Position numbers and translations under genes: made by a program. Positions 47,331 through 59,677 of a DNA stretch of 64,000 bases are shown here, in pieces; the stretch's first letter is position 1, and the number at the start of each line of letters is the position of its first letter. The stretch lies in NCBI GenBank assembly GCA_020630795.1, contig JAHDIK010000009.1, positions 1 through 64,000 of the forward strand. The letters run 5' to 3'. The notes below the pieces were generated by a model. That model ran no database searches. It saw only the letters and a list, made by a program, of their open reading frames with translations, and was not told the origin of the DNA. The stretch comes from Colwellia sp. (GTDB taxonomy: Bacteria; Pseudomonadota; Gammaproteobacteria; Enterobacterales; Alteromonadaceae).

Positions 47331-48677
47331 TTATCGTGCGATAGGTGTTCTTTTGTCAACACTCATAGTAGCAATAATTCTGCGGTTTTCAGCGTGCGCA
47401 GCAGCAGTGTTGTCAGTATTTAATAACTTTTCTTCACCGTACCCGATAGCTGATAATCTATCAGCGTCTATACCATGCTTAGTTGTAAGCATACTTACAA
47501 TAGCATCAGCACGTTTTTGTGATAAGAACTTATTGTACGCATCGTTACCTTGCACAGATGCATGGCCTTCAATTACAACATTGATGCTCTTGTTAGCTTC
47601 TAAGAACTGAGCAACTTCTTCTATTTTGTTGAAGTATTCAGGTTCAACAACAGAACTGTTGTTAGCAAAGTTAACTAATAAGTTGATTGATTCAACGTCA
47701 TCAATGTATTTAGTACAGCCAGTTTCGTCTACTGCATACATTGGTGATGAATTTTCACACTTATCTAATGCATCAGCAACGCCGTCTCCGTCAGCATCAA
47801 CCATTTTCTCAGCAGCAAGTTTAGCCATAAATGCACTTCGCTCAGCTGGAGTCATGTTTGCGTAAGCATCTTTTTGTGCTTGTGTCATGTTCGCGTAAAG
47901 CGCTCTTTCAGCAGGCGACATACTTAAGTATAAGCTTCTTTCTTCAGCAGACATGTTTAAGAATGCAGTTCTTTCAGCAGGAGACATTTTTGCAAACGCA
48001 TCTTTCTCATATTGAGATAAGTTAGCGTACGCGTCTTTTTCTGCTTGCGTTAAGTTAGCAAATGCTTGTGTTGCCATAAAACCAGTTGCAACTTTAGCTG
48101 CTTTGCTTTTAGAAGAACTACTTTTGCTATCACCAAAGAAGTAAGTAAAACCTAGTTGTGTAGTAAAGTCGTCATGGTAGTTGTCAAACTGATAATGTGC
48201 TTTTGCTTCTAAGTATAATGCTGTTTTTTCGCTTAGGTAGTGGCGGTAACCTAAACCTAAGTTTGAAGATAACTTAGTATCAACAACATCTAACTGAGAA
48301 AAACCACCTAATAAGTAGAAGTTTTTGGCTGTTGGAAAATATAAAGCATCAAACGCGATAGATGAAGAGTTTGGCTTATCAAATCCACCGTTTTTAGCAT
48401 CAAGGTTAATGTGGCTGTAACCTAATCTAAATTCAGTATTTTCACTAGCACGGTAACCTAATTCTCCACCAAATCCATCACCATTGTTTAATGATGAAAG
48501 AGGGCTAGAGGTTAACCAACGTTTGCTGTCTAAATCGATATGCGTAAGGTGTAATCCACCGTAAGCTTTACCAACTAAATCTGCCGCGTTTGGTTGTTCG
48601 CTTGCCGATACAGTTGCAACAGTAAATAACGATGAAACAGCAAGTGCAACAGCACTACGAATAAATAAGTTTTTCAT
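47331..48677 (-). CDS. OmpA-family outer-membrane protein with an 11-residue repeat linker
   Basis: A 448-aa protein: signal peptide (1-25, cleavage after VSA), an N-terminal eight-stranded-type barrel (about 35-183, AYGGLHLTHIDLDS to TQLGFTYFF), a linker of hendecad repeats (204-287), a short TSP3-like Asp-rich motif DADGDGVADALDKCENS (294-310) and a C-terminal OmpA peptidoglycan-binding domain (about 330-440: EGHASVQGNDAYNKFLSQKRADAIV, RLSAIGYGEEK, NRRIIA). The barrel and C-terminal domain are ordinary; the long repetitive linker is not. It is a single, leftward gene with its own terminator, probably abundant. Confidence 0.9.
   Translation of the reverse strand: MKNLFIRSAVALAVSSLFTVATVSASEQPNAADLVGKAYGGLHLTHIDLDSKRWLTSSPLSSLNNGDGFGGELGYRASENTEFRLGYSHINLDAKNGGFDKPNSSSIAFDALYFPTAKNFYLLGGFSQLDVVDTKLSSNLGLGYRHYLSEKTALYLEAKAHYQFDNYHDDFTTQLGFTYFFGDSKSSSSKSKAAKVATGFMATQAFANLTQAEKDAYANLSQYEKDAFAKMSPAERTAFLNMSAEERSLYLSMSPAERALYANMTQAQKDAYANMTPAERSAFMAKLAAEKMVDADGDGVADALDKCENSSPMYAVDETGCTKYIDDVESINLLVNFANNSSVVEPEYFNKIEEVAQFLEANKSINVVIEGHASVQGNDAYNKFLSQKRADAIVSMLTTKHGIDADRLSAIGYGEEKLLNTDNTAAAHAENRRIIATMSVDKRTPIAR
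47817..48068 (-). repeat. Tandem 33-bp (11-codon) repeat within the OmpA-family gene
   Basis: Residues 204-287 consist of a partial unit (QAFANLT) and seven 11-residue units, for example QAEKDAYANLS, PAERTAFLNMS and QAQKDAYANMT. Conserved positions are Glu/Gln-Lys/Arg in the middle, an aromatic at position 7, and Met/Leu-Ser/Thr at the end. Period 11 is the hendecad, usually a right-handed coiled coil. It links the barrel to the peptidoglycan-binding domain. Confidence 0.85.
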
Positions 48678-48924: not shown

Positions 48925-50574
48925 ATGAGCTTTTTTCATTTTTTTCGATATTTGAAATACCACAAAAAAAGTATCTTACTTGTTATTGTACTCATGGTGC
49001 TCGAAAGTCTTGTTAGCTTGAGTGTTCCTTGGTTTGCAGGTCAGTTTTCCAAAAGCTTACTCGAGAACTATGAAATTTATGATTTTGGTTATAAATGGTT
49101 AGCACTTATCTGGCTAATGTTGTTTATTGTCCAAGCCGTGCTTCGTTTTTTCTCTACTTACAAAGTTAACTTTATTGGTGCCCAAATTTTAACGCAGCTT
49201 AGTTGTAGGCTGTATGACCATATTCAGGTTTTACCCGTTCAATATTTTAATAATAATAAAAAAGGCGAAACGTTAGCGCTGTTAAGTAACGACGTTAGTA
49301 TTATTAGTTATTTTCTTTCAGGTATTTTAACGGGGCTTGTTCCGTCGTTACTTATTTTAGTAGGTTCATTAATCTTAATGGCTCAAATTAGCCCTACGAT
49401 CACCTTGCTAATTATGACTATGATTCCCGCTTTTTTTATTGTGCTGAAAGTATTAGGGCGAAGCATAAAGCCTCTGACCGAAAGCATTGTAAAAACACAA
49501 GCTAGCTCGGTTGCTATCGCAAGTGAAAATTTTGGTGTAATTAAGTTGGTAAAATCCTTCTCTAGAGAGAAAGTAGAGTCTGACCGATTTAAAAATAATG
49601 CGTATAAAATACAAGAATTACGCAAAAAACAACTTAAAGTTCAAGCGATATTGTCGCCACTTATTCAATTGTTAGTAACGTCTGGTGTATTGGTTATAGT
49701 CGTTGTCAGTGCTATTCATTATCAAACGGGCAAGCTTTCAATGGCTGAACTTATCACAATACTCATGTACGGTATTTTGTTTGCACGCCCAATGAGTTCG
49801 CTTGCTAATTTATATGGGCAAGTACAGCAAGCTAGAGGCGCATCAACACGCTTGATTAATGTATTTGGTTTATCTCCAGAGCCTATTGAAAATGAGCAAG
49901 GTATTACGGCTGTTCCAAATAATAATATTTCGTTCAAAAACGTTAGTTTTCAGTACAATGAGAATGAAAAACTATTAAATAACGTTAATATCGAAATCGA
50001 CGCTGGTGAAACACTCGTAATTGTGGGCGAAAATGGTAAAGGTAAAACAACTTTGTTTCATTTATTGTTGCGTTTTATCGAGCCTGCCACGGGAGTGATT
50101 GCTGTCGGTGGAATTGATATCAAAGACTATAATTTATCGGCTTTACGCAATCATATAGGCTTAGTGTCTCAAGACATTGCTCTATGTAACGGTTCTATAC
50201 TCGACAATATAGCATATGGTTACCCTCAAGCGACATTAACTGAAATTGAAGAAGCCGCTAAACTCGCGGGCGCTGATGAGTTTGTTACTCAACTTGAGCA
50301 CGGGTATAAAACGCAAGTAGGTGAAAATGGAGTATTGCTTTCAGGGGGGCAACGCCAACGTATTTCTCTTGCCCGAGCGTTATTGCAAAAACCTAAAATG
50401 TTATTATTAGACGAGCCTACGTCAATGATAGATAAAGAAGGAAAGGCGGATTTTATCGTCTTTCTAAAAAGCTTATTACAAAATCATACCGTACTCATAG
50501 TAACTCATGATCCTGAATTAAATGAAATAGCAGACCGTGTTGTGACAATGGATCGTGGTAAACTCAACGAATAA
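48925..50574 (+). CDS. Lasso-peptide ABC exporter (fused permease-ATPase)
   Basis: A 549-aa type I exporter half-transporter, the expected D protein of a lasso cluster, exporting and conferring immunity to the mature peptide. Six membrane helices fill 1-310. The ATPase has Walker A GENGKGKTT (367-375), signature LSGGQRQR (near 472), Walker B KMLLLDEPTSMID and the H-loop VTHD. There is no N-terminal peptidase (C39) domain. An inverted repeat TTGCAGT / ACTGCAA (48842-48871) lies upstream and may be an operator. It is followed after 21 bases by the PqqD-like gene. Confidence 0.85.
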   Translation: MSFFHFFRYLKYHKKSILLVIVLMVLESLVSLSVPWFAGQFSKSLLENYEIYDFGYKWLALIWLMLFIVQAVLRFFSTYKVNFIGAQILTQLSCRLYDHIQVLPVQYFNNNKKGETLALLSNDVSIISYFLSGILTGLVPSLLILVGSLILMAQISPTITLLIMTMIPAFFIVLKVLGRSIKPLTESIVKTQASSVAIASENFGVIKLVKSFSREKVESDRFKNNAYKIQELRKKQLKVQAILSPLIQLLVTSGVLVIVVVSAIHYQTGKLSMAELITILMYGILFARPMSSLANLYGQVQQARGASTRLINVFGLSPEPIENEQGITAVPNNNISFKNVSFQYNENEKLLNNVNIEIDAGETLVIVGENGKGKTTLFHLLLRFIEPATGVIAVGGIDIKDYNLSALRNHIGLVSQDIALCNGSILDNIAYGYPQATLTEIEEAAKLAGADEFVTQLEHGYKTQVGENGVLLSGGQRQRISLARALLQKPKMLLLDEPTSMIDKEGKADFIVFLKSLLQNHTVLIVTHDPELNEIADRVVTMDRGKLNE

Positions 50575-50595
50575 ACGCAAAGCAAGGAAATATCG

Positions 50596-50868
50596 ATGGA
50601 AAACAAGTGCTATCAACTAGCAGAGAATGTACTGTTTCAAAAAGTGGATGATGAAACGGTTTTGTTAGAACCTACCACAGGGCAATATTACACTTTAGAC
50701 CCAGTAGGTACTTTTATGGTTGAGCAACTGATTGAAGGGCATACCTTTGGTGTTGTATTAGAGAAAGTAACAAATACTTATAGCGTTGAACTAAATGAAG
50801 TATCGGCTGATTTAAAAGAGCTTATTACTTCAATGATAGAGCAATCGTTAATTGTAGAGGCTGCTTAA
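50596..50868 (+). CDS. PqqD-family RiPP recognition element (lasso B1)
   Basis: A 90-aa PqqD-like protein that binds the leader peptide and presents it to the maturation enzymes. Typical pattern: LAENVLFQKVDDETVLLEPTTGQYYTLDPVGTFMVEQL, a three-stranded sheet then helix, with later helices VEQLIEGHTFGVVLEK and DLKELITSMIEQSLIV. PqqD-like proteins also occur in unrelated exosortase-linked loci, but with the B2 protease gene ten bases downstream it is read here as split B1. GCAAGGAAATATCG provides the ribosome site. Confidence 0.87.
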   Translation: MENKCYQLAENVLFQKVDDETVLLEPTTGQYYTLDPVGTFMVEQLIEGHTFGVVLEKVTNTYSVELNEVSADLKELITSMIEQSLIVEAA

Positions 50869-50878
50869 TCTGTTATAT

Positions 50879-51334
50879 ATGGTTAATTTATCTAGCGTAA
50901 CGTCGCTAACTATACCGCAATGGAAAGTGTTTATTGAGTCTTGGATAATGTACCTAAAATGGGACATTAAAATTTCCGCGTTTAATTATAACAAATGGAA
51001 AGACAGCATTAACGTAAGTACAGAAGCTCAGCAAAGTGCTGAAGTAGACTTAGACGAAGTTAACCAACTTATAAAAATTAATGAAAAAGCAGGTCGTAAT
51101 CACATTCGCAAAATGAATTGTTTAAGACGGTGTTTATGTCAAAAACAATTATTAGCAAAAAGAAGCATAAATACTAAGCTGCACTTTGGTGTTCAGTTAA
51201 ATAATGGACAGTTATCAGCACATTCTTGGCTTACATGCCAAGGCAGAATTATTAACGACTCAATCGAAGAAACCAGTAAATATAAAGAACTTACAGATAC
51301 AGCTACAATTGATCGCATAAAAACGTTTATTTAG
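50879..51334 (+). CDS. Lasso-peptide leader peptidase B2 (transglutaminase-like)
   Basis: A 151-aa cysteine protease that cuts the leader from the precursor. The catalytic triad expected for this family is visible: Cys81 in NCLRRCL, His115 in LSAHSWL (the AHxW block) and Asp127 in IINDS. The N-terminal half is a helical segment with less conservation. It starts ten bases after the B1 stop, and the Shine-Dalgarno region is weak, suggesting translational coupling. It is the last gene of the D-B1-B2 unit and converges on the cyclase gene (83 bases between stops). Confidence 0.85.
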   Translation: MVNLSSVTSLTIPQWKVFIESWIMYLKWDIKISAFNYNKWKDSINVSTEAQQSAEVDLDEVNQLIKINEKAGRNHIRKMNCLRRCLCQKQLLAKRSINTKLHFGVQLNNGQLSAHSWLTCQGRIINDSIEETSKYKELTDTATIDRIKTFI

Positions 51335-51417
51335 TCAGTTCTCCAGATAAGTTACGGCCCATTAAATCTAATTGTTCTTTATCTATTCTATTATAAATAA
51401 CCACAGGTGCAGAAATT

Positions 51418-53343
51418 TTACGGTGAGCAGAAATGTGTTTGAAACCATGATTGCGTTAAAATGACATAAAGCATATCAACGTTAAGTTGGCTATTTTGGT
51501 GTTCAACTATTCTGTCAAATTGCGCTAATACCTCCTCATTATTAATAAGACCGAGCTCCTGTAATCCTTCATGAGTTAATAACTTTCTAATTTCAGTTTT
51601 ATTACTTTTAACCAAGTTAGCGAAATGATGATCGAATACAACTTTATGTTTATTCCATACAACAGATTCTGGTAAATATTCTTCCATTGTTTTTCTAAGT
51701 AGCCATTTAGGATAACTTCCTTGAATCAACATTTTCTCAGGAATGGCAAAACTGTATTGAACAATGTCAGTGTCGAAAAACGGGTGCTTTACGTTCACGT
51801 CGTATTCATTTGCAAGTTTTTGATAAGACCTCATAGAATTAAATGTAGAAGTTGTATGTAACCCAACATAACGAGCATGTTTAGCTGGTTCAAAAGTGTT
51901 TGAATAAGGATTCGTTAGTGTATCTTGCAAAATGTAATCAATAGCTTCATCAGTTAACCAAGTAGGGTGCTGGTTGTCACTATGTAATTGAGTTGGTTTA
52001 CCTTTCGCAATTCTTAATAAATTCATGATGGTATTCGGGACTATAGGTTTGACGAAAAGGTTTACTAACGAAGCTGCAATTGGCTCGTTTAGCTCCTTAC
52101 ACGCCTCTATTACTTCACTAACAACAGATAGCTCTCCTTTATATAAACGAGAGCGATATGACGCACTGTGTCCCCAACACATTTCATCACCACCATTACC
52201 TGTTAATAACGTGTTCGCGCCCAGAGATTGAATCAGCTTTAATTCTTCACGGTATTTAGGTGACAACACAATTCCAGGGTTGTCAAAGTCGGTAGGGTAT
52301 AACTCACCGAAGCTGCTGTTGTAAAATTTGTCTAATTCAACAAAATGAGCATTATTTAATTTTAATTTATCTATCATGTGCTCAATGTTCATGCTTTCAT
52401 CACAGCTTTCTGTATTTTTGTATGTGTGAGATAACGTATGTAGTGACATATTGCGATCGTTCGCTATTTCATTAGCTAAAGCTGTAATTGAGGTAGAGTC
52501 CATACCACCACTCATTTGTGAAAATACCGGAGAGTTTAAATCGTCGTTACTCATACTGTTATTTACACTTGAGTGCAGCAAACTATAAAAATGTTCTTGA
52601 TAGTTTTTTGTATTGGTATATGAAATGGATTGCTTTGTATTTAGTCCCCAGAATTTACGTACAGTAATTTCACCATTATCATAGGTTAACTCAGATCCTT
52701 GTGGGATCTGATTAATCTCGTTGAACATCGAAGTGTTCGGATCAGGCCTGCCTGATAACCACTTTGATACGGCTTTTTTATTTACGCTAATGTTCAAGTT
52801 TAATAATTTAACTAAAAACTGTGCGTCAGAAGCAATATATAAGGCATTGTTTATCGTTGTATAGAATAAACATCTACTACTAAAAGGTGAAACTACTGCT
52901 TTTAGTTTATTAAGCTTTTCATCCCATAATACAAATGTATAATCGCCTTTAAATCGGCTTAAATAGTTAACAGGATCCTCAACATAAGCGTTATGTAGTA
53001 AATTTTCTAGATTGTTAACGTTATGATCGTCAGGAATTTTTACACTACTTATCTTATAACCATCTCTTATATATATATCACCATTTACTATGGTAGAGGT
53101 TCTTAGGTTACAACCTTTAGTTTCCAAAAGTCGTTGTTCTTCTAAAGTATCCGTTGTTTGGTTAAGGGCATGAATACGGTAGCTTCCAATATTCACATCT
53201 AAATGCTTTTTTGCATTTAATTCTTTTAAATCAGTTGTGTATGGGAAATCTTTTAGGTTATTTATTAGGTGCTTTGCTGAGTTGTCTAAGCCAATAGTCG
53301 CGACTATTCCCTTAAAAAAATTACGTGATTTAAATTTCATCAT
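51418..53343 (-). CDS. Lasso-peptide cyclase C (asparagine-synthetase-like)
   Basis: A 641-aa macrolactam-forming enzyme that adenylates the ring Asp/Glu side chain and joins it to the core N-terminus. The C-terminal ATP-pyrophosphatase domain has the PP-loop SGGMDS (278-283), LTGNGGDEMCWGH and FDTDIVQYSFAIPEKM. The N-terminal glutaminase-like domain (1-230) has lost the catalytic N-terminal Cys (starts MMKFKSRN), as expected for a cyclase that uses no ammonia. It is transcribed opposite to the rest of the cluster; 371 bases of possible divergent promoter separate it from the PEP-CTERM gene. A start three bases later (second ATG) is possible. Confidence 0.88.
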   Translation of the reverse strand: MMKFKSRNFFKGIVATIGLDNSAKHLINNLKDFPYTTDLKELNAKKHLDVNIGSYRIHALNQTTDTLEEQRLLETKGCNLRTSTIVNGDIYIRDGYKISSVKIPDDHNVNNLENLLHNAYVEDPVNYLSRFKGDYTFVLWDEKLNKLKAVVSPFSSRCLFYTTINNALYIASDAQFLVKLLNLNISVNKKAVSKWLSGRPDPNTSMFNEINQIPQGSELTYDNGEITVRKFWGLNTKQSISYTNTKNYQEHFYSLLHSSVNNSMSNDDLNSPVFSQMSGGMDSTSITALANEIANDRNMSLHTLSHTYKNTESCDESMNIEHMIDKLKLNNAHFVELDKFYNSSFGELYPTDFDNPGIVLSPKYREELKLIQSLGANTLLTGNGGDEMCWGHSASYRSRLYKGELSVVSEVIEACKELNEPIAASLVNLFVKPIVPNTIMNLLRIAKGKPTQLHSDNQHPTWLTDEAIDYILQDTLTNPYSNTFEPAKHARYVGLHTTSTFNSMRSYQKLANEYDVNVKHPFFDTDIVQYSFAIPEKMLIQGSYPKWLLRKTMEEYLPESVVWNKHKVVFDHHFANLVKSNKTEIRKLLTHEGLQELGLINNEEVLAQFDRIVEHQNSQLNVDMLYVILTQSWFQTHFCSP

Positions 53344-53635
53344 TAATAGTAAGTATATAGTGCTATGTATATATAGTGATGTAATGACATAATAATGTCA
53401 TGGAAATATTGTAAATTTATTTCAGCTAGAGTTAGTCGCTTTGTTGGTGATTGAGTGATAAATGTTAGTTTAATACAAAAACTGTATGTTAAATGAACCA
53501 CTCTGGTGAAATGTGCACTTACGTTGTGCACCTTTAAAAATGTGCGTGTCAGCTTATTTTACATGTGATGTGCTTAGCTTTGTATTAATTATATATATTT
53601 ACCTTAGTGATTGTTAAATAATACATTTTATATTT

Positions 53636-53651
53636 TGGAATGGTTTTTGCT
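53636..53651 (+). promoter_or_regulatory. Sigma-54 type -24/-12 promoter of the PEP-CTERM/lasso-precursor operon
   Basis: TGGAAT-N5-TTGCT: GG and GC separated by exactly 10 bases, agreeing with the consensus TGGCAC-N5-TTGC(A/T) at 9 of 11 fixed positions. Predicted start near 53662, about 54 bases before the ATG. A perfect 12-base palindrome AATTGCGCAATT (53674-53685) lies in the leader. Sigma-54 promoters with the PrsK/PrsR system are established for PEP-CTERM genes. Nothing else recognisable is seen in 53344-53635, which must hold the cyclase promoter. Confidence 0.65.
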
Positions 53652-53715
53652 TTTGCTTGAACAGATGAATTTTAATTGCGCAATTACAGGAAGCATTCTT
53701 TTAAGGAGAATACAG

Positions 53716-54333
53716 ATGTTGAAAAAATTACTATTAGGTAGTGCTTTACTATCTACAAGCTTATTTTCACAAGCAGGTTATATTAGTGTTATTGACGGTG
53801 CTGATATGGCTGGCATTGAAGTTACTGCTTATTTTGGAAATGGAACAAGTGAAACCCAAACTTGGGCTGCAACATCAGCTGATTCTGGTGCCGCAGCATC
53901 TTCAGACTGGTCATTATCATTAAGTGGAGAAACGTTTGGTAACGTACTTCCATCAGGTGCCTTTGACGGTGTTTGGGTATTAGATAACTTAAACAGAGCA
54001 GATGGAATTATTGGTCTTGAAATTAACGCGGCTATTGCTGATGTATTTTTCGATAATGTTGACACTGTTGAAGAAACTGCTGGTTCTGGCGTTGGTAGAC
54101 CTTTTGTTGCTGACTTACCAAGTGTGGCTAGCTCTTTTAGTGATATGGAAAGTGCACCTGATTTGTTTGGTACATTAAATATTGATTGGACTAACGGTAC
54201 GAATTTAGAGCTGGGTCAAGCACTAAACTTTTTTATCGATACCGATAAGAAAACAGTATCAGAGCCAACCACATGGTTAGTTATGCTTTCTGGTTTAGTC
54301 GCTTTGCTCAGTTCACGCAGAAATAAAGTTTAA
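53716..54333 (+). CDS. PEP-CTERM-type exosortase-sorted protein
   Basis: A 205-aa secreted protein. It has a signal peptide (MLKKLLLGSALLSTSLFSQA) and a C-terminal sorting tail: the motif SEPTTW (a PEP variant), a hydrophobic helix LVMLSGLVALLS and a basic end SRRNKV. The body is Asp/Ser/Gly-rich with beta strands and no Cys, so it is probably a matrix or surface protein. AAGGAGA seven bases before ATG 53716 fixes the start; the longer frame to 53611 overlaps the promoter. It is 25 bases upstream of the lasso precursor gene and in the same operon. No exosortase is in the window. Confidence 0.87.
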   Translation: MLKKLLLGSALLSTSLFSQAGYISVIDGADMAGIEVTAYFGNGTSETQTWAATSADSGAAASSDWSLSLSGETFGNVLPSGAFDGVWVLDNLNRADGIIGLEINAAIADVFFDNVDTVEETAGSGVGRPFVADLPSVASSFSDMESAPDLFGTLNIDWTNGTNLELGQALNFFIDTDKKTVSEPTTWLVMLSGLVALLSSRRNKV

Positions 54334-54358
54334 TTTAGAAAATCATAAGGAAGTTAAC

Positions 54359-54523
54359 ATGAATTCTAACAACGTAGCTCAAGAAAAATCAGTAGAATTG
54401 AAAACTTATTCAAAACCAGTGCTAACAAATGCAGGTAACCTTGCAGAGTTAACTCAAGGCTTTGCTGGGAGTATTCCAGACGAGCAAGGTGGTCATACCA
54501 AGCGTAACCCATTCCAAGGGTAA
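54359..54523 (+). CDS. Lasso-peptide precursor (54 aa)
   Basis: Found by reading the gap after the PEP-CTERM gene; AAGGAAG lies five bases before ATG. The leader carries the lasso-leader consensus Y-x-x-P-x-L-x-x-x-G-x-x-x-x-x-T: Tyr17, Pro20, Leu22, Gly26, and Thr32 at the penultimate leader position, the site read by B2. Cleavage after Gln33 gives a 21-residue core starting at Gly34, with GFAGSIPDE at its start. Asp41 (core 8) or Glu42 (core 9) can close an 8- or 9-residue ring; the tail is QGGHTK... ending NPFQG, with His13, Lys15, Arg16 and Phe19 as possible plug residues. No Cys is present. It is the only such frame in the locus. Confidence 0.88.
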   Translation: MNSNNVAQEKSVELKTYSKPVLTNAGNLAELTQGFAGSIPDEQGGHTKRNPFQG

Positions 54524-54534
54524 TATGCGAATTC

Positions 54535-54565
54535 TTTAACCTGAGTTTTATAGATTCAGGTTAAA
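54535..54565 (+). promoter_or_regulatory. Intercistronic stem-loop between precursor and kinase genes
   Basis: Perfect 10-base arms TTTAACCTGA / TCAGGTTAAA with an 11-base loop, 11 bases after the precursor stop and 15 before the kinase start. No T run follows, so it looks like an RNA-stability or processing hairpin or leaky attenuator instead of a full terminator, raising precursor over kinase levels. Confidence 0.6.
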
Positions 54566-54580
54566 GAGCCTCTAAATAAT

Positions 54581-55579
54581 ATGAATCCTTTATATAAATT
54601 ACCGCTACATGGTGTTTCATGTGGACACTTCGGTGATCTCGGTGAAAATTCACATAATACGCCGTATAAGTTGACAATGTGTCATCATTCGTTAGTCGAT
54701 GACGAGTTTGTTAATACTTCAAGCGTTAAACCTATTTGGATGTTGAGTGATATAGCTAAACGCTATACAACAGAAATTAGTTTATATAATGCTATAAAAA
54801 GTAATGGATACATTTTACAAGTCGATTGCCAGGGAAAAGGGCAATTTCACTTTTCAGAGAATACATGCAACGTATTATGGAACAATGAAGGCACTGATTC
54901 AGCCCATTACTTTCAAACAATTGGTTTAGCATTGTGGCTTGAGTTAAAAGGTATACTTTGTATACACGCTAATGCGATCAGTTATAACAACTCAGCTTTT
55001 GCGTTAATGGCACCAAGCAGAACGGGTAAAACAACCCTGACTACTTATTTGTGTCAAAATGGGTTTCAAGCAATGACTGACGACATGATTGCTATTTACC
55101 CTGATGTAAATAATCAATACAAAGTGTACCCTAGCTGGCCTGTTTCACGCCTATGGCCCGACACGTTAGCAATGTTGTTTGAGCAAGAAGAGTTGCCTGA
55201 TAACACCGAACGAGTACATAAACGTTTCGATAAAAAAAGTGTGAATTTACATAATAATAATTTGTCGTTTTGTACGAGCTTTCAAAAATTAAATACGATC
55301 TATTTACTTAATAGAGTAGAGCAAAAAAACAACGAAAGTTCTTTGAAAAATTCAAATGTTTGTAATATTACAACATTATCATCTTCAAAAGCGGTCATAC
55401 TATTGTTACAAAATAGTGTATTAGGTAATGCTTTTTCCGCATTAAATATTGAACATAAACGCGTATTAGCATTATCAAAACTTGTTTCAAATATTCAAGT
55501 TAAAATGATCACTTACGTGAGCGGACAAGAGTATTTACCTAATATATCTAAAGAAATTATAAAAGACTTAGCTAATTAA
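54581..55579 (+). CDS. HPr-kinase-like protein of lasso cluster (K)
   Basis: A 332-aa protein related to the HprK-type P-loop kinases. Walker A is present in APSRTGKTT (144-152) inside an HprK-like context (CIHANAISYNNSAFALMAPSRTGKTTL), followed by a DD pair (167-168). In characterised Bacillus and Paenibacillus lasso clusters, homologous kinases phosphorylate the C-terminal serine of the precursor. Here the core ends in Gly, so the target is unclear. HprK-like proteins also occur in exosortase-related loci. It is 57 bases after the precursor gene. Confidence 0.8.
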   Translation: MNPLYKLPLHGVSCGHFGDLGENSHNTPYKLTMCHHSLVDDEFVNTSSVKPIWMLSDIAKRYTTEISLYNAIKSNGYILQVDCQGKGQFHFSENTCNVLWNNEGTDSAHYFQTIGLALWLELKGILCIHANAISYNNSAFALMAPSRTGKTTLTTYLCQNGFQAMTDDMIAIYPDVNNQYKVYPSWPVSRLWPDTLAMLFEQEELPDNTERVHKRFDKKSVNLHNNNLSFCTSFQKLNTIYLLNRVEQKNNESSLKNSNVCNITTLSSSKAVILLLQNSVLGNAFSALNIEHKRVLALSKLVSNIQVKMITYVSGQEYLPNISKEIIKDLAN

Positions 55580-55762: not shown

Positions 55763-57166
55763 ATGAATGAAAACAACGGTATTATTAAAAATAACATTAA
55801 TGTGTTTGCCGTAGTTTATCGGTTAATTGACTTAGCTGTTATTCAATTTTTATTGCTGGTGGTACTATTTTTATACGGTGTTGCGTATTCTAAAGAGTAC
55901 TTCGAATTATCACTCATTGCCTCTATTGGTTATTTTCTAACTGCAGAGTCATTCGCATTATACCGATCTTGGCGAGCAGGCTTTTTTAAAGAAATTGTAT
56001 TTTATACTTTTTTAGCTTGGGCTGTGGCCTCCGTATTAGTAATCACTTTTCTTTTTTTCACTAAACAATCAGTGGGTTTTTCGCGCCTATCAGTTGGTTT
56101 ATGGTTCAGCATCACGTTCTTTACATTAATTGCGTGGCGTTATGGTTTTAGTCAATTTTTGGCGAGTATCCGCAAAAAAGGGCGTAACACCCGCAGAGTA
56201 GCCATTATCGGCATAACTAAATCTGGTAAACGACTCGCACAACAAATTTTAGACAACCCAGAAACGGGTTATAGGCTAAACGCCATTTTTGATGACCGCA
56301 TTCCAGAACGTATAGACGCTACATATCATGCATGGCTGCAAGGAACAATTCTAGAAGGCGTTGAACGAGCAAAAAACAATGAGTTTGACGTAATTTATAT
56401 TGCGTTACCAATTACCGCAGAAGAACGCATCAAAGGCATACTGCAGCAGCTAGGCGACACTACAGCTAATGTACAAATAGTACCCGACTTATTTATTTAT
56501 ACCTTAATGAACGCCTCCATGTCGCATGTAGGTAATGTGCAAACTATCAGCGTATACGACAATCCAATGCGTGGCGGTAATGCAGCACTTAAGCGCATCG
56601 AAGATATTATCTTGTCATCTTGTATTCTTGCCATTATTTCAATTCCTCTTATCGCTATTGCAATAGCTGTAAAGGCTACCTCGAAAGGCCCTATCATTTT
56701 TAAGCAAGACAGGTATGGGTTAGACGGTAAAAAAATTCGTGTGTGGAAGTTCCGTTCTATGACCGTAACCGAAAACGCAAACGTGGTTACTCAAGCTAAG
56801 AAAGGCGATGCTCGTATTACGCCATTAGGTGCCTTTTTAAGAAGAACCTCGTTAGACGAATTGCCACAGTTCATTAACGTACTTCAAGGGCGAATGTCGG
56901 TAGTAGGGCCAAGGCCGCACGCCATTGCTCATAATGAAGAGTACAGAAAACAGGTAGACTACTACATGTTACGCCATAAAGTTAGACCAGGTATTACCGG
57001 TTGGGCGCAAGTAAACGGTTGGCGTGGAGAAACTGACACAATAGACAAAATGGAAATGCGTATTAAATACGATCTTGAATATATACGTAATTGGACTTTA
57101 TGGTTAGACGCCAAAATAGTATTATTCACCATCTTCAGATCGTTTAATGATAGAAATGCATACTAA
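55763..57166 (+). CDS. Undecaprenyl-phosphate sugar phosphotransferase (WcaJ/PssE type)
   Basis: Initiates exopolysaccharide repeat synthesis by placing a hexose-1-phosphate, usually glucose or galactose, on undecaprenyl phosphate at the inner membrane. The 467-aa protein has four N-terminal helices (about 15-125), a Rossmann-like CoA-binding-type domain (about 145-260, RRVAIIGITKSGKRLA), a fifth helix (about 280-300) and the bacterial sugar-transferase domain (KVWKFRSM, RTSLDELPQFINVLQGRMSVVGPRPH, RPGITGWAQVNGWRG). It is the first gene of the operon; the ribosome site AAAGGA is 13 bases from ATG, rather far. Confidence 0.92.
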   Translation: MNENNGIIKNNINVFAVVYRLIDLAVIQFLLLVVLFLYGVAYSKEYFELSLIASIGYFLTAESFALYRSWRAGFFKEIVFYTFLAWAVASVLVITFLFFTKQSVGFSRLSVGLWFSITFFTLIAWRYGFSQFLASIRKKGRNTRRVAIIGITKSGKRLAQQILDNPETGYRLNAIFDDRIPERIDATYHAWLQGTILEGVERAKNNEFDVIYIALPITAEERIKGILQQLGDTTANVQIVPDLFIYTLMNASMSHVGNVQTISVYDNPMRGGNAALKRIEDIILSSCILAIISIPLIAIAIAVKATSKGPIIFKQDRYGLDGKKIRVWKFRSMTVTENANVVTQAKKGDARITPLGAFLRRTSLDELPQFINVLQGRMSVVGPRPHAIAHNEEYRKQVDYYMLRHKVRPGITGWAQVNGWRGETDTIDKMEMRIKYDLEYIRNWTLWLDAKIVLFTIFRSFNDRNAY

Positions 57167-58567: not shown

Positions 58568-59677
58568 TTGAATATAAGTATTTTTAACAACAAATATAGC
58601 AAAGAAAAAGACGCGGTTTATTGCAGCCTTTTAAAACTTGCATGTGTTAATGATAGTGTTACTTATAATCAATCAGAAATTGCTTTAGCTATTAGAACAT
58701 TAAATCAAGTTGTAGCATATCAAAGTGTACATAAAAGACTGTTACCATTACTTTTAGCTAAAGCAAAAAAACTAAATATTTTTAAACGTTTAAATAAACC
58801 TGTACAAGAGCTTTTACTCAAAAGTACAAAGCTTGGTATTGTTAGTCAATTAGCCAAACAATATCAATTAGACATATTAATTAAAGAGTTCAATGTTCAT
58901 AACGTTCCAATTATATTGCTAAAATCAACAGCTTTTAATAATACGCTATATGCTAATGAGTACCCTAGACTATCTAACGATATAGATATTCTTGTTCAAA
59001 AAAAACATTGGGCAAAAGCGCAAAATATCATGGCAAATGTAATGGATTATAAAGCAAAAATTTTTCCAGATGTTTTCGGTGATGCCTATGAAGTATCGTA
59101 TACGCCCAAAACCAAAGTTGGCGATAATGTTGATTTACATATGGCATTAATTAATCCCATATTATTTGATATTGAAGAAAATTATTTATGGGAAACTAGT
59201 AGTATTCATCCAATATATGAAAACAATAATATAAGACAATTATCGGCAGAATGCTGCTTATTGCATCAGGCTATACATGCGTTTAGTGATATGAATTTTT
59301 GTAAATACAACTTGGTTGATACGCACGAAATACTCACTCAACGTAATCCGAATATAGAGCACGTTATTAATATGGCTAAAAAATGGGGGTGCGAAGTCCC
59401 TTTATATTTTTTACTGAATAATTACCAAAATATCATACAAGATAGTATTGATGAAAAATTGATAAAAAGTGTTAAACCATCAACGATTAAAAACAAAATA
59501 GCGATAAGGTTATTAAACTCAAGATATACTCAACCAGGGATGTTAAAAAAATCAAAGCGATATCGTTTTAATCAACTAACATCATTTTTTGTATTTGTTG
59601 GACGTGTTAAAAATGTATTTAGAATGCTAAAAGTGTTCTTAATACATTATGTAAAAGCGCAATCGAAAAATTACTAG
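58568..59677 (+). CDS. Nucleotidyltransferase-family protein (NTP_transf_5 type)
   Basis: A 369-aa protein of the uncharacterised nucleotidyltransferase family seen in many exopolysaccharide and lasso clusters. The acidic pair Asp138/Asp140 occurs in LSNDIDILVQ, after the LLKSTAFNNTLY segment; a second acidic region follows at DNVDLHM. The start is a TTG at 58568 with an AAAGAAAAAG ribosome site, nine bases after ugd. In the pseudomycoidin lasso cluster a protein of this kind modifies the phosphorylated peptide; in this operon it may equally act on the polysaccharide. Function is not assigned. Confidence 0.75.
   Translation: MNISIFNNKYSKEKDAVYCSLLKLACVNDSVTYNQSEIALAIRTLNQVVAYQSVHKRLLPLLLAKAKKLNIFKRLNKPVQELLLKSTKLGIVSQLAKQYQLDILIKEFNVHNVPIILLKSTAFNNTLYANEYPRLSNDIDILVQKKHWAKAQNIMANVMDYKAKIFPDVFGDAYEVSYTPKTKVGDNVDLHMALINPILFDIEENYLWETSSIHPIYENNNIRQLSAECCLLHQAIHAFSDMNFCKYNLVDTHEILTQRNPNIEHVINMAKKWGCEVPLYFLLNNYQNIIQDSIDEKLIKSVKPSTIKNKIAIRLLNSRYTQPGMLKKSKRYRFNQLTSFFVFVGRVKNVFRMLKVFLIHYVKAQSKNY

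Follow-up and report, generated by a model that had tools for sequence, protein, structure and literature searches.

Lasso peptide gene clusters of the paeninodin type (class II, with split B1 and B2 proteins and a kinase) encode a precursor with a YxxPxL...G...T leader, a PqqD-type B1 protein, a B2 protein, an asparagine-synthetase-like C protein, an ABC exporter and an HprK-like kinase. All of these were found in a locus on the window, a stretch of 64,000 nucleotides of Colwellia sp. (contig JAHDIK010000009.1 of assembly GCA_020630795.1). Unlike the paeninodin type, the locus encodes a core without a C-terminal Ser for the kinase, the cyclase gene lies on the opposite strand, a gene encoding a PEP-CTERM-like protein precedes the precursor gene, the core is near-invariant across genera and a promoter of the PrsR/sigma-54 type is present. 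We consider it rather probable that the locus, which adjoins exopolysaccharide genes, gives rise to a lasso peptide which is made together with a matrix protein sorted by exosortase and which acts in the matrix or as a signal.

The kinases PadeK, ThcoK, SyanK and PsmK modify a C-terminal Ser (PMC9266682). The pseudomycoidin (psm) cluster with PsmK and PsmN shares with the window a kinase and an annotated nucleotidyltransferase but stems from a Bacillus host and is modified at the C-terminal Ser; PsmN, the annotated nucleotidyltransferase, adds hexoses to the phospho-Ser of pseudomycoidin (PMC9266682). The bsf cluster of Bradymonas (BsfA/K/B1/B2/C/D/N) has in common with the window an HprK-like kinase, a core without C-terminal Ser and a predicted nucleotidyltransferase gene. 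It has Ile at position -2 and is modified at ring Ser3, whereas Thr at -2 and Ser5 are found here, and the genes described at its flanks encode an FG-GAP protein and ribosomal proteins, not matrix proteins (PMC10368454). BsfK modifies this Ser3 in a core ending in Asp, a precedent for phosphorylation of a Ser within the ring (PMC10368454). With the PEP-CTERM/exosortase system under PrsK-PrsR and sigma-54, the locus shares a surface protein with a C-terminal sorting-type signal, a -24/-12 promoter preceded by a box, a genome that encodes PrsR and EpsH, and exopolysaccharide genes close by; most PEP-CTERM genes described so far stand alone in their operons, whereas here the precursor gene of a ribosomally synthesized and post-translationally modified peptide (RiPP) comes next (PMC1569441, PMC9850573). 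A small-molecule product has also been tied to this sorting system; its chemistry is different and it is not a RiPP.

A preliminary description, made from the sequence of the window, had proposed a complete lasso peptide cluster with a new precursor at 48925-55579. The exporter, B1, B2, the cyclase and the 54-aa precursor are indeed all present (Table 1) and the proposal stands to this extent, but it had overlooked that the core is near-invariant, as well as the kinase, the control by sigma-54 and the partner protein of the PEP-CTERM-like kind. The gene inventory was correct for the parts it named; the genes for the partner protein and the kinase, the opposite strand of the cyclase gene and the exopolysaccharide locus from 55763 onwards were missing from it. 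B1 also matched NCBIfam models for lasso PqqD proteins, with scores under their curated cut-offs. A putative catalytic triad of B2 (Cys81-His115-Asp127) was invariant in 20 of 20 aligned sequences, and no peptidase domain was present among the Pfam matches of the exporter. The cyclase reached 182 bits with the lasso-cyclase model NF033535, under the cut-off of 525. Its SGG-x-DS motif was invariant (21/21) and the synthetase half well conserved; the N-terminal ~hundred residues aligned poorly among homologues. The proposed lack of the glutaminase Cys was borne out: position 2 is not Cys and a Met-Cys start was found in 0 of 21 rows, whose starts are those of mechanically called open reading frames. 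Compared with solved structures, the cyclase profile retrieved asparagine synthetases, a hydroxyamidotransferase, CarA and a beta-lactam synthetase, and the precursor profile retrieved four lasso leader/peptide chains (E 0.025-1.3) as well as two unrelated chains. Tyr, Pro, Gly and Thr(-2) of the leader signature were invariant in all 41 aligned precursors and the lasso-leader model scored over its cut-off. The predicted 21-residue core GFAGSIPDEQGGHTKRNPFQG (54458-54520) starts with Gly1, and Asp8 and Glu9, named before as alternative points of ring closure, are both invariant. After loss of one water, this core has a calculated monoisotopic mass of 2181.035 ([M+3H]3+ 728.019), or of 2261.001 (754.674) if it carries one phosphate. 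In sum, the locus shows the features of a lasso pathway that can be tested from sequence, and a lasso peptide is its predicted product. Going by family membership, B1 would bind the leader, B2 would cleave after Gln33 with Thr at -2, C would join the N-terminus of Gly1 to Asp8 or Glu9 and D would export the lasso peptide.

The 41 precursors comprise 39 matches to a DNA pattern of the core, the copy in the window and that of locus L041; none was dropped. Their core consensus is G[FY][AS]GS[IV]PDE[QNH]GG[HQNS][TA]KRNPF[QTELV]G with 14 of 21 positions fixed. Since 10 of these 14 positions are imposed, or nearly so, by the search pattern, precursors from genomes selected by their cyclase were examined as well. 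In these 17 genomes the same 14 positions were fixed, with a median identity of 90.5% (18 of 19 precursors; the third copy of genome G243 was excluded). Gly1, Asp8 and Glu9 were found in 18/18 precursors of the cyclase-selected genomes and in 41/41 overall, Asp8 and Glu9 being part of the search pattern in the overall set. Ser5 was invariant (41/41), Thr14 was present in 40 of 41, and the last residue was Gly in every precursor, so the C-terminal Ser of the paeninodin subtype is absent. The median pairwise identity amounted to ~90% for the core, 47% for the leader, 39% for the kinase, 38% for the cyclase and 36% for the PEP-CTERM-like protein. Between pairs, 54% of the codons for the same residue differed, and 10.5% of the core residues. 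Since the codons have diverged and the enzymes are only ~38% identical, strong purifying selection must act on the core, which is not merely young; recent spread as the only cause of its identity is ruled out on these grounds. A core of such constancy appears unusual for a lasso family. Behind the precursor gene, 30 of 41 stretches gave hairpins with z < -2 against mononucleotide shuffles. A uniform hairpin was rejected, as those of several relatives resemble plain terminators; terminator-like hairpins between the precursor and kinase genes, found in many relatives, could lead to a high precursor-to-kinase ratio.

The distribution of the precursor was determined in a collection with one genome per species, in which several loci stop at contig or stretch ends. 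Among 295 genomes of the family, 24 matched the cyclase at E <= 1e-20, 17 of them at E <= 4e-120 and the remainder at E >= 3.5e-26. The precursor profile matched 17 genomes at E <= 1.4e-27, identical to the 17 with a close cyclase; one extra match was at chance level (E 0.001, within an 814-aa frame). Co-occurrence in exactly the same 17 of 295 genomes is beyond chance. Conservation of the precursor alongside the cluster genes, on which the preliminary description had made its proposal depend, was thus found in 17 of 17 family genomes with a close cyclase. In 84,980 species genomes the core DNA pattern was found in 33 stretches, from Alteromonas, Paraglaciecola, Aliiglaciecola, Glaciecola, Colwellia, Pseudocolwellia, Catenovulum, Marisediminitalea and Aestuariibacter and also from Reinekea, a Methylothermaceae bin, a Chromatiales bin, two Gammaproteobacteria bins and one bin labelled Flavobacteriales. 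Named carriers are Pseudocolwellia agarivorans QM50, Alteromonas lipolytica JW12 and Paraglaciecola algarum G1-23. These 33 stretches and the 17 family genomes contradict a one-off, strain-specific cluster. For 14 of these core-bearing loci, 13 further genomes were searched for the cyclase. Eleven matched at E <= 1e-159, the gene being interrupted by an internal stop in one of them; the match in the Methylothermaceae bin reached only 4e-17, and one Colwellia bin had none.

A wider spread in the class was rejected: the cyclase was found at E 1e-40 in only three of 321 genomes, the own genome, G811 and G981. The match in G811 has the same coordinates as that in G681, which had already been reached via locus L057. 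In G981 (locus L139, G981:C177), B2 and C were present, and neither a precursor by profile nor a leader-like small open reading frame was detected in 9 kb of the 12-kb contig; B2 and the cyclase are of the same subfamily and lie there beside housekeeping-like genes. A phylum sample of 398 gave 10 precursor matches, of which two were own-family genomes with full precursors and eight were weak (E 3e-4 to 0.009), most covering the leader only. Carriage on plasmids was rejected: no cyclase match at E 1e-30 was found in 72,556 plasmid records. In a gammaproteobacterial bin (L141, 315-2183) the cyclase is broken by an internal stop, and B1, B2 and D are open. The bin labelled Flavobacteriales (NORP269; L049/L144) carries a full block of D, B1, B2, C, PEP-CTERM-like gene, A, K and WcaJ and may be mis-binned or the result of a transfer.

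The gene immediately 5' of the precursor encodes a PEP-CTERM-like protein in the window and in 36 of 40 copies outside it. Loci L059, L062 and L142 each contain two copies of this pair, which differ in the leader and agree in the core. The protein of the window has an N-terminal signal-like helix, a beta-sandwich body and a C-terminal SEP-helix-RR tail (AlphaFold pLDDT 90; helix 186-202), and an alignment of 34 homologues together with the model revealed the architecture of PEP-CTERM proteins. A fold match was rejected, since the best hits were below significance both in Foldseek (E 0.007, a CBM3) and in VIA-align (Z 6.3, beta domains of sugar enzymes). The exosortase EpsH is encoded in the own genome (197 bits against a cut-off of 105.6). 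It was found in 16 of 17 lasso genomes compared with 190 of 278 other family genomes; with p 0.016 this enrichment is too weak to serve as an argument of its own. Architecture, promoter and genomic exosortase fit a possible membership of the partner protein in the PEP-CTERM class, although its score with the Pfam model of this class is below the cut-off (see below).

Upstream regions were scanned for sigma-54 sites, defined as GG-N10-GC with at least 9 of 12 matches to TGGCACRNNNNTTGCW and at most 250 bp upstream. A site was found upstream of the PEP-CTERM-like gene in 31 of 35 loci and on the opposite strand in 0 of 35, and mononucleotide shuffles gave a mean of 0.74 of 35 (maximum 4, 200 rounds). 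With unadjusted starts the number was 30 of 35, dinucleotide shuffles giving a mean of 1.54 (maximum 6, 100 rounds). Before other genes, sites were found for D in 1/13, B1 in 0/17, B2 in 1/17, C in 1/23, K in 1/27, A in 3/39 and WcaJ in 7/21 cases. As a sigma-54-like site lies within 250 bp upstream of 7 of the 21 WcaJ genes, the regulator may also control some of the exopolysaccharide genes.

An unsupervised motif search was then applied to 30 of the 35 regions; three without an upstream site, one with a distant site and one with too little upstream sequence were excluded. It returned the box TGTC-N6-TTTTACA with 17.7 bits, compared with 8.1-8.5 bits in three shuffled sets. The box was located 63-64, 73-76, 84-88 or 94-97 nt 5' of the promoter in 29 of the 30 regions, that is, in positions one helical turn apart; the match in the 30th (L049, which contains Ns) was off register. 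The loci with the box are related to each other and do not represent 30 independent cases. In the PEP-CTERM genes of Proteobacteria described by Haft and colleagues, a motif found via TTTACA is separated by 62.8 +/- 10.6 nt from a sigma-54 site, which in turn lies 71 nt (S.D. 38.5) before the start codon, PrsR being the likely activator (PMC1569441). The box in the window resembles this published motif 1, a likeness which is based on TTTACA and on the spacing as described in the text (PMC1569441). The published pepA promoter reads TGGCAC and CTGCTT, and floc formation of Aquincola involves an RpoN-dependent PEP-CTERM gene (PMC9850573); flocs of Zoogloea are said to require PEP-CTERM proteins (PMC9012009). 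A strict pattern of box plus promoter has a single occurrence in the window (53548-53650) and was found before the PEP-CTERM-like gene in 25 of 33 core-bearing loci (L047-L079). PrsR scored over the cut-off in the own genome and in all 17 lasso genomes; of 10 exosortase-negative genomes (one genome of 81% completeness was skipped), none had it. Away from the partner gene, the combined box and sigma-54 pattern was also seen in Catenovulum agarivorans, where it lies at the beginning of D, the gene for the exporter (L031, 13197-13275, minus strand). On the contig of the window (C13, ~80704-80807; L028, 18704-18807, minus strand) a second copy is present at the distal end of the exopolysaccharide locus, ~46 bp 5' of a putative beta-barrel porin gene preceding export genes; judged by the shuffles, one such hit could be chance.

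Several observations weigh against the preferred explanation of a lasso peptide that is modified by the kinase and linked to the PEP-CTERM matrix. The protein of the window gave 15.2 bits with PF07589, under the cut-off of 20.7, and the place of Glu in P-E-P is occupied by Glu in only 16 of 34 homologues (17 Ala, 1 Val). The exosortase is common in the family (206/295), so that 16 of 17 is only a weak enrichment, and a match to it was absent from one lasso genome (G141). PrsR was detected just as well in each of 20 exosortase-positive genomes that lack the cluster and indicates only that the regulator is available; it goes with the exosortase and was discarded as a marker of lasso genomes. A qualifying sigma-54 site was missing in four of the 35 upstream regions, and since D, B1, B2 and C are mostly without one, the machinery may be controlled otherwise. 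The box plus promoter pattern was missing before the gene in 8 of the 33 loci (some of which end early) and occurs in some loci also away from PEP-CTERM-like genes. Its rarity in the window was abandoned as an argument: 20 mononucleotide shuffles of the window gave one hit but 20 dinucleotide shuffles gave eight, and it is the place and conservation of the pattern that carry weight. Four precursor copies, all in multi-copy genomes (Aestuariibacter, Marisediminitalea, Alteromonas lipolytica and Alteromonas alba), have no PEP-CTERM-like gene in front, although other copies in these genomes do. The kinase gene is found within 1 kb of the precursor in only 30 of 40 copies, several stretches ending early, and Ala144 of the kinase is at the place of the first P-loop Gly (G163) that BsfK needs.

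The model of kinase K was similar in Foldseek to HprK/P (1kkl, E 4.4e-7) and PEPCK (1ylh, E 1.1e-7), and His129, Lys150, Asp167 and Asp168 were invariant in 27 of 27 sequences. Because the core has no C-terminal Ser, Ser5 is the likeliest target, and the lasso peptide is probably phosphorylated on this ring residue by K, which would act on the precursor ahead of cyclisation. Clear homologues of the NTP_transf_5 protein of the window were found near the precursor in L030, L031, L032, L054, L060 and L064; in the remaining loci none was detected with the single query sequence used, and some of these loci end early.

Taken as a whole, the precursor gene would be the second gene of a likely transcript from the promoter in front of the PEP-CTERM-like gene, which PrsR may activate. 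With a common promoter, the peptide and the surface protein would be co-produced whenever the PEP-CTERM/exopolysaccharide programme is active. The core is near-constant while the proteins around it vary, hence its target should be constant as well. The peptide would then act on members of the producer's kind and serve as a structural ligand or a signal in the exopolysaccharide/PEP-CTERM matrix, and not as a diversifying antibiotic. More tentatively, it may form a constant structural element of the matrix, with a phosphate and perhaps a sugar on ring Ser5, and may be exported with its cognate PEP-CTERM-like protein and bound to this protein or to the exopolysaccharide; in that case a mechanically locked peptide would serve as matrix linker or self-recognition tag. 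The confidences we attach to the preferred explanation and to its rivals overlap and do not sum to one, since a signal and a covalent link are forms of the former.

A cell-cell signal, by which the producer population senses the peptide, for example via the PEP-CTERM-like protein or the kinase PrsK, and sets matrix production, is likewise a tentative possibility. The invariant core and the promoter shared with the surface protein would suit a fixed ligand, but no receptor was identified, and the PEP-CTERM-like partners, being only 36% identical, vary more than one would expect for the receptor of an invariant ligand. Slightly more doubtful is an ordinary antimicrobial, bacteriocin-like lasso peptide which lies beside the exopolysaccharide locus and shares a regulator, and whose core is fixed by one conserved bacterial target. 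Every known biosynthetic part plus an exporter is indeed present, and a number of known lasso peptides are antibacterial, as review abstracts also state. The pairing of PEP-CTERM-like gene and precursor over large divergence and its doubling in L059, L062 and L142 argue against this explanation, as does a promoter of the type of matrix genes; an immunity gene was not recognised either, though no search was aimed at one. Covalent attachment to the matrix, in which Ser5 would be phosphorylated by K and its phosphate then receive sugar from the NTP_transf_5 protein or from exopolysaccharide enzymes, tying the lasso to the polysaccharide, is unlikely. It has a precedent in PsmN (PMC9266682), and an NTP_transf_5 gene is present in this locus and near the precursor in six others, with WcaJ following K in many loci, but PsmN works at a C-terminal Ser and not in the ring, its common Pfam family with NTP_transf_5 is presumed, and NTP_transf_5 was not detected in the other loci by the single-sequence search described above. 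An unthreaded macrolactam, or a core linked to another protein, would agree with the poorly conserved N-terminal part of the cyclase but is very improbable, since B1, B2, C and the leader signature are of the lasso type, with an intact synthetase domain and with Thr(-2), Gly1 and Asp8/Glu9 all in place.

In the literature searched, the six core strings were absent, lasso peptides and PEP-CTERM were mentioned together only through PEP-CTERM in reference titles, exosortase was absent among the matches listed for exosortase, lasso, PqqD and HprK, and no title on this lasso family was among the matches listed. Within this scope the precursor and its association appear to be undescribed; the pathway is known, and the conserved core and its regulon appear to be new. 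An unspecified lasso cluster was flagged by antiSMASH in Alteromonas RKMC-009 (PMC6588371) and could belong to this family. What most lasso peptides do in nature is not known, and the same holds for much of the function of exosortase-sorted proteins in the matrix. A lasso core that stays constant in several gammaproteobacterial lineages, and whose gene has a PEP-CTERM-like neighbour and a promoter of the matrix type ahead of it, joins these two questions and makes them testable in strains such as the carriers named above.

Table 1 Features of the lasso peptide locus and its surroundings in the window
Feature	Position	Strand	Evidence or remark
D, ABC exporter	48925-50574	+	PF00664 (membrane) and PF00005 (ATPase) domains; homologues in many related loci
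B1, PqqD-type RiPP recognition element	50596-50868	+	PF05402, 44.3 bits (cut-off 23.4)
B2, leader peptidase	50879-51334	+	NF033537 (lasso_biosyn_B2), 51.5 bits (cut-off 33); PF13471
C, asparagine-synthetase-like macrolactam cyclase	51418-53343	-	PF00733, 112 bits, over cut-off
Box TGTC-N6-TTTTACA, putative PrsR (enhancer) site	53547-53563	+	motif search in 30 upstream regions
Promoter of the sigma-54 -24/-12 type, TGGAATGGTTTTTGCT	53636-53651	+	80 bp 5' of 53716
PEP-CTERM-like surface protein, 205 aa	53716-54333	+	ends 25 bp 5' of the precursor gene
A, lasso precursor, leader 33 aa and core 21 aa	54359-54523	+	NF033521, 27.5 bits (cut-off 19)
Strong hairpin 3' of A	54524-54580	unspecified	folding, -19.3 kcal/mol, no T-run
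K, kinase of the HPr-kinase/PEPCK fold, 332 aa	54581-55579	+	alignment of 27; Foldseek
WcaJ, undecaprenyl-phosphate glucose phosphotransferase, start of the exopolysaccharide locus	55763-57166	+	TIGR03023, 533 bits, over cut-off
NTP_transf_5, uncharacterised nucleotidyltransferase family	58568-59677	+	PF14907, 104.8 bits (cut-off 31.2)

Besides WcaJ and the NTP_transf_5 protein, the exopolysaccharide locus encodes glycosyltransferases, a WecG-family protein and a gene product which we take to be UDP-glucose-dehydrogenase-like. Further along the same contig, genes encoding a flippase-type protein, more glycosyltransferases, a Wzz/tyrosine-kinase-like protein and a polysaccharide export protein were found. 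On the other side of the cluster (47331-48677, minus strand), the translation revealed a protein with degenerate repeats of the kind MSPAER.. / MTQAQKDAYAN.. in its middle part, presumably an OmpA-type protein.

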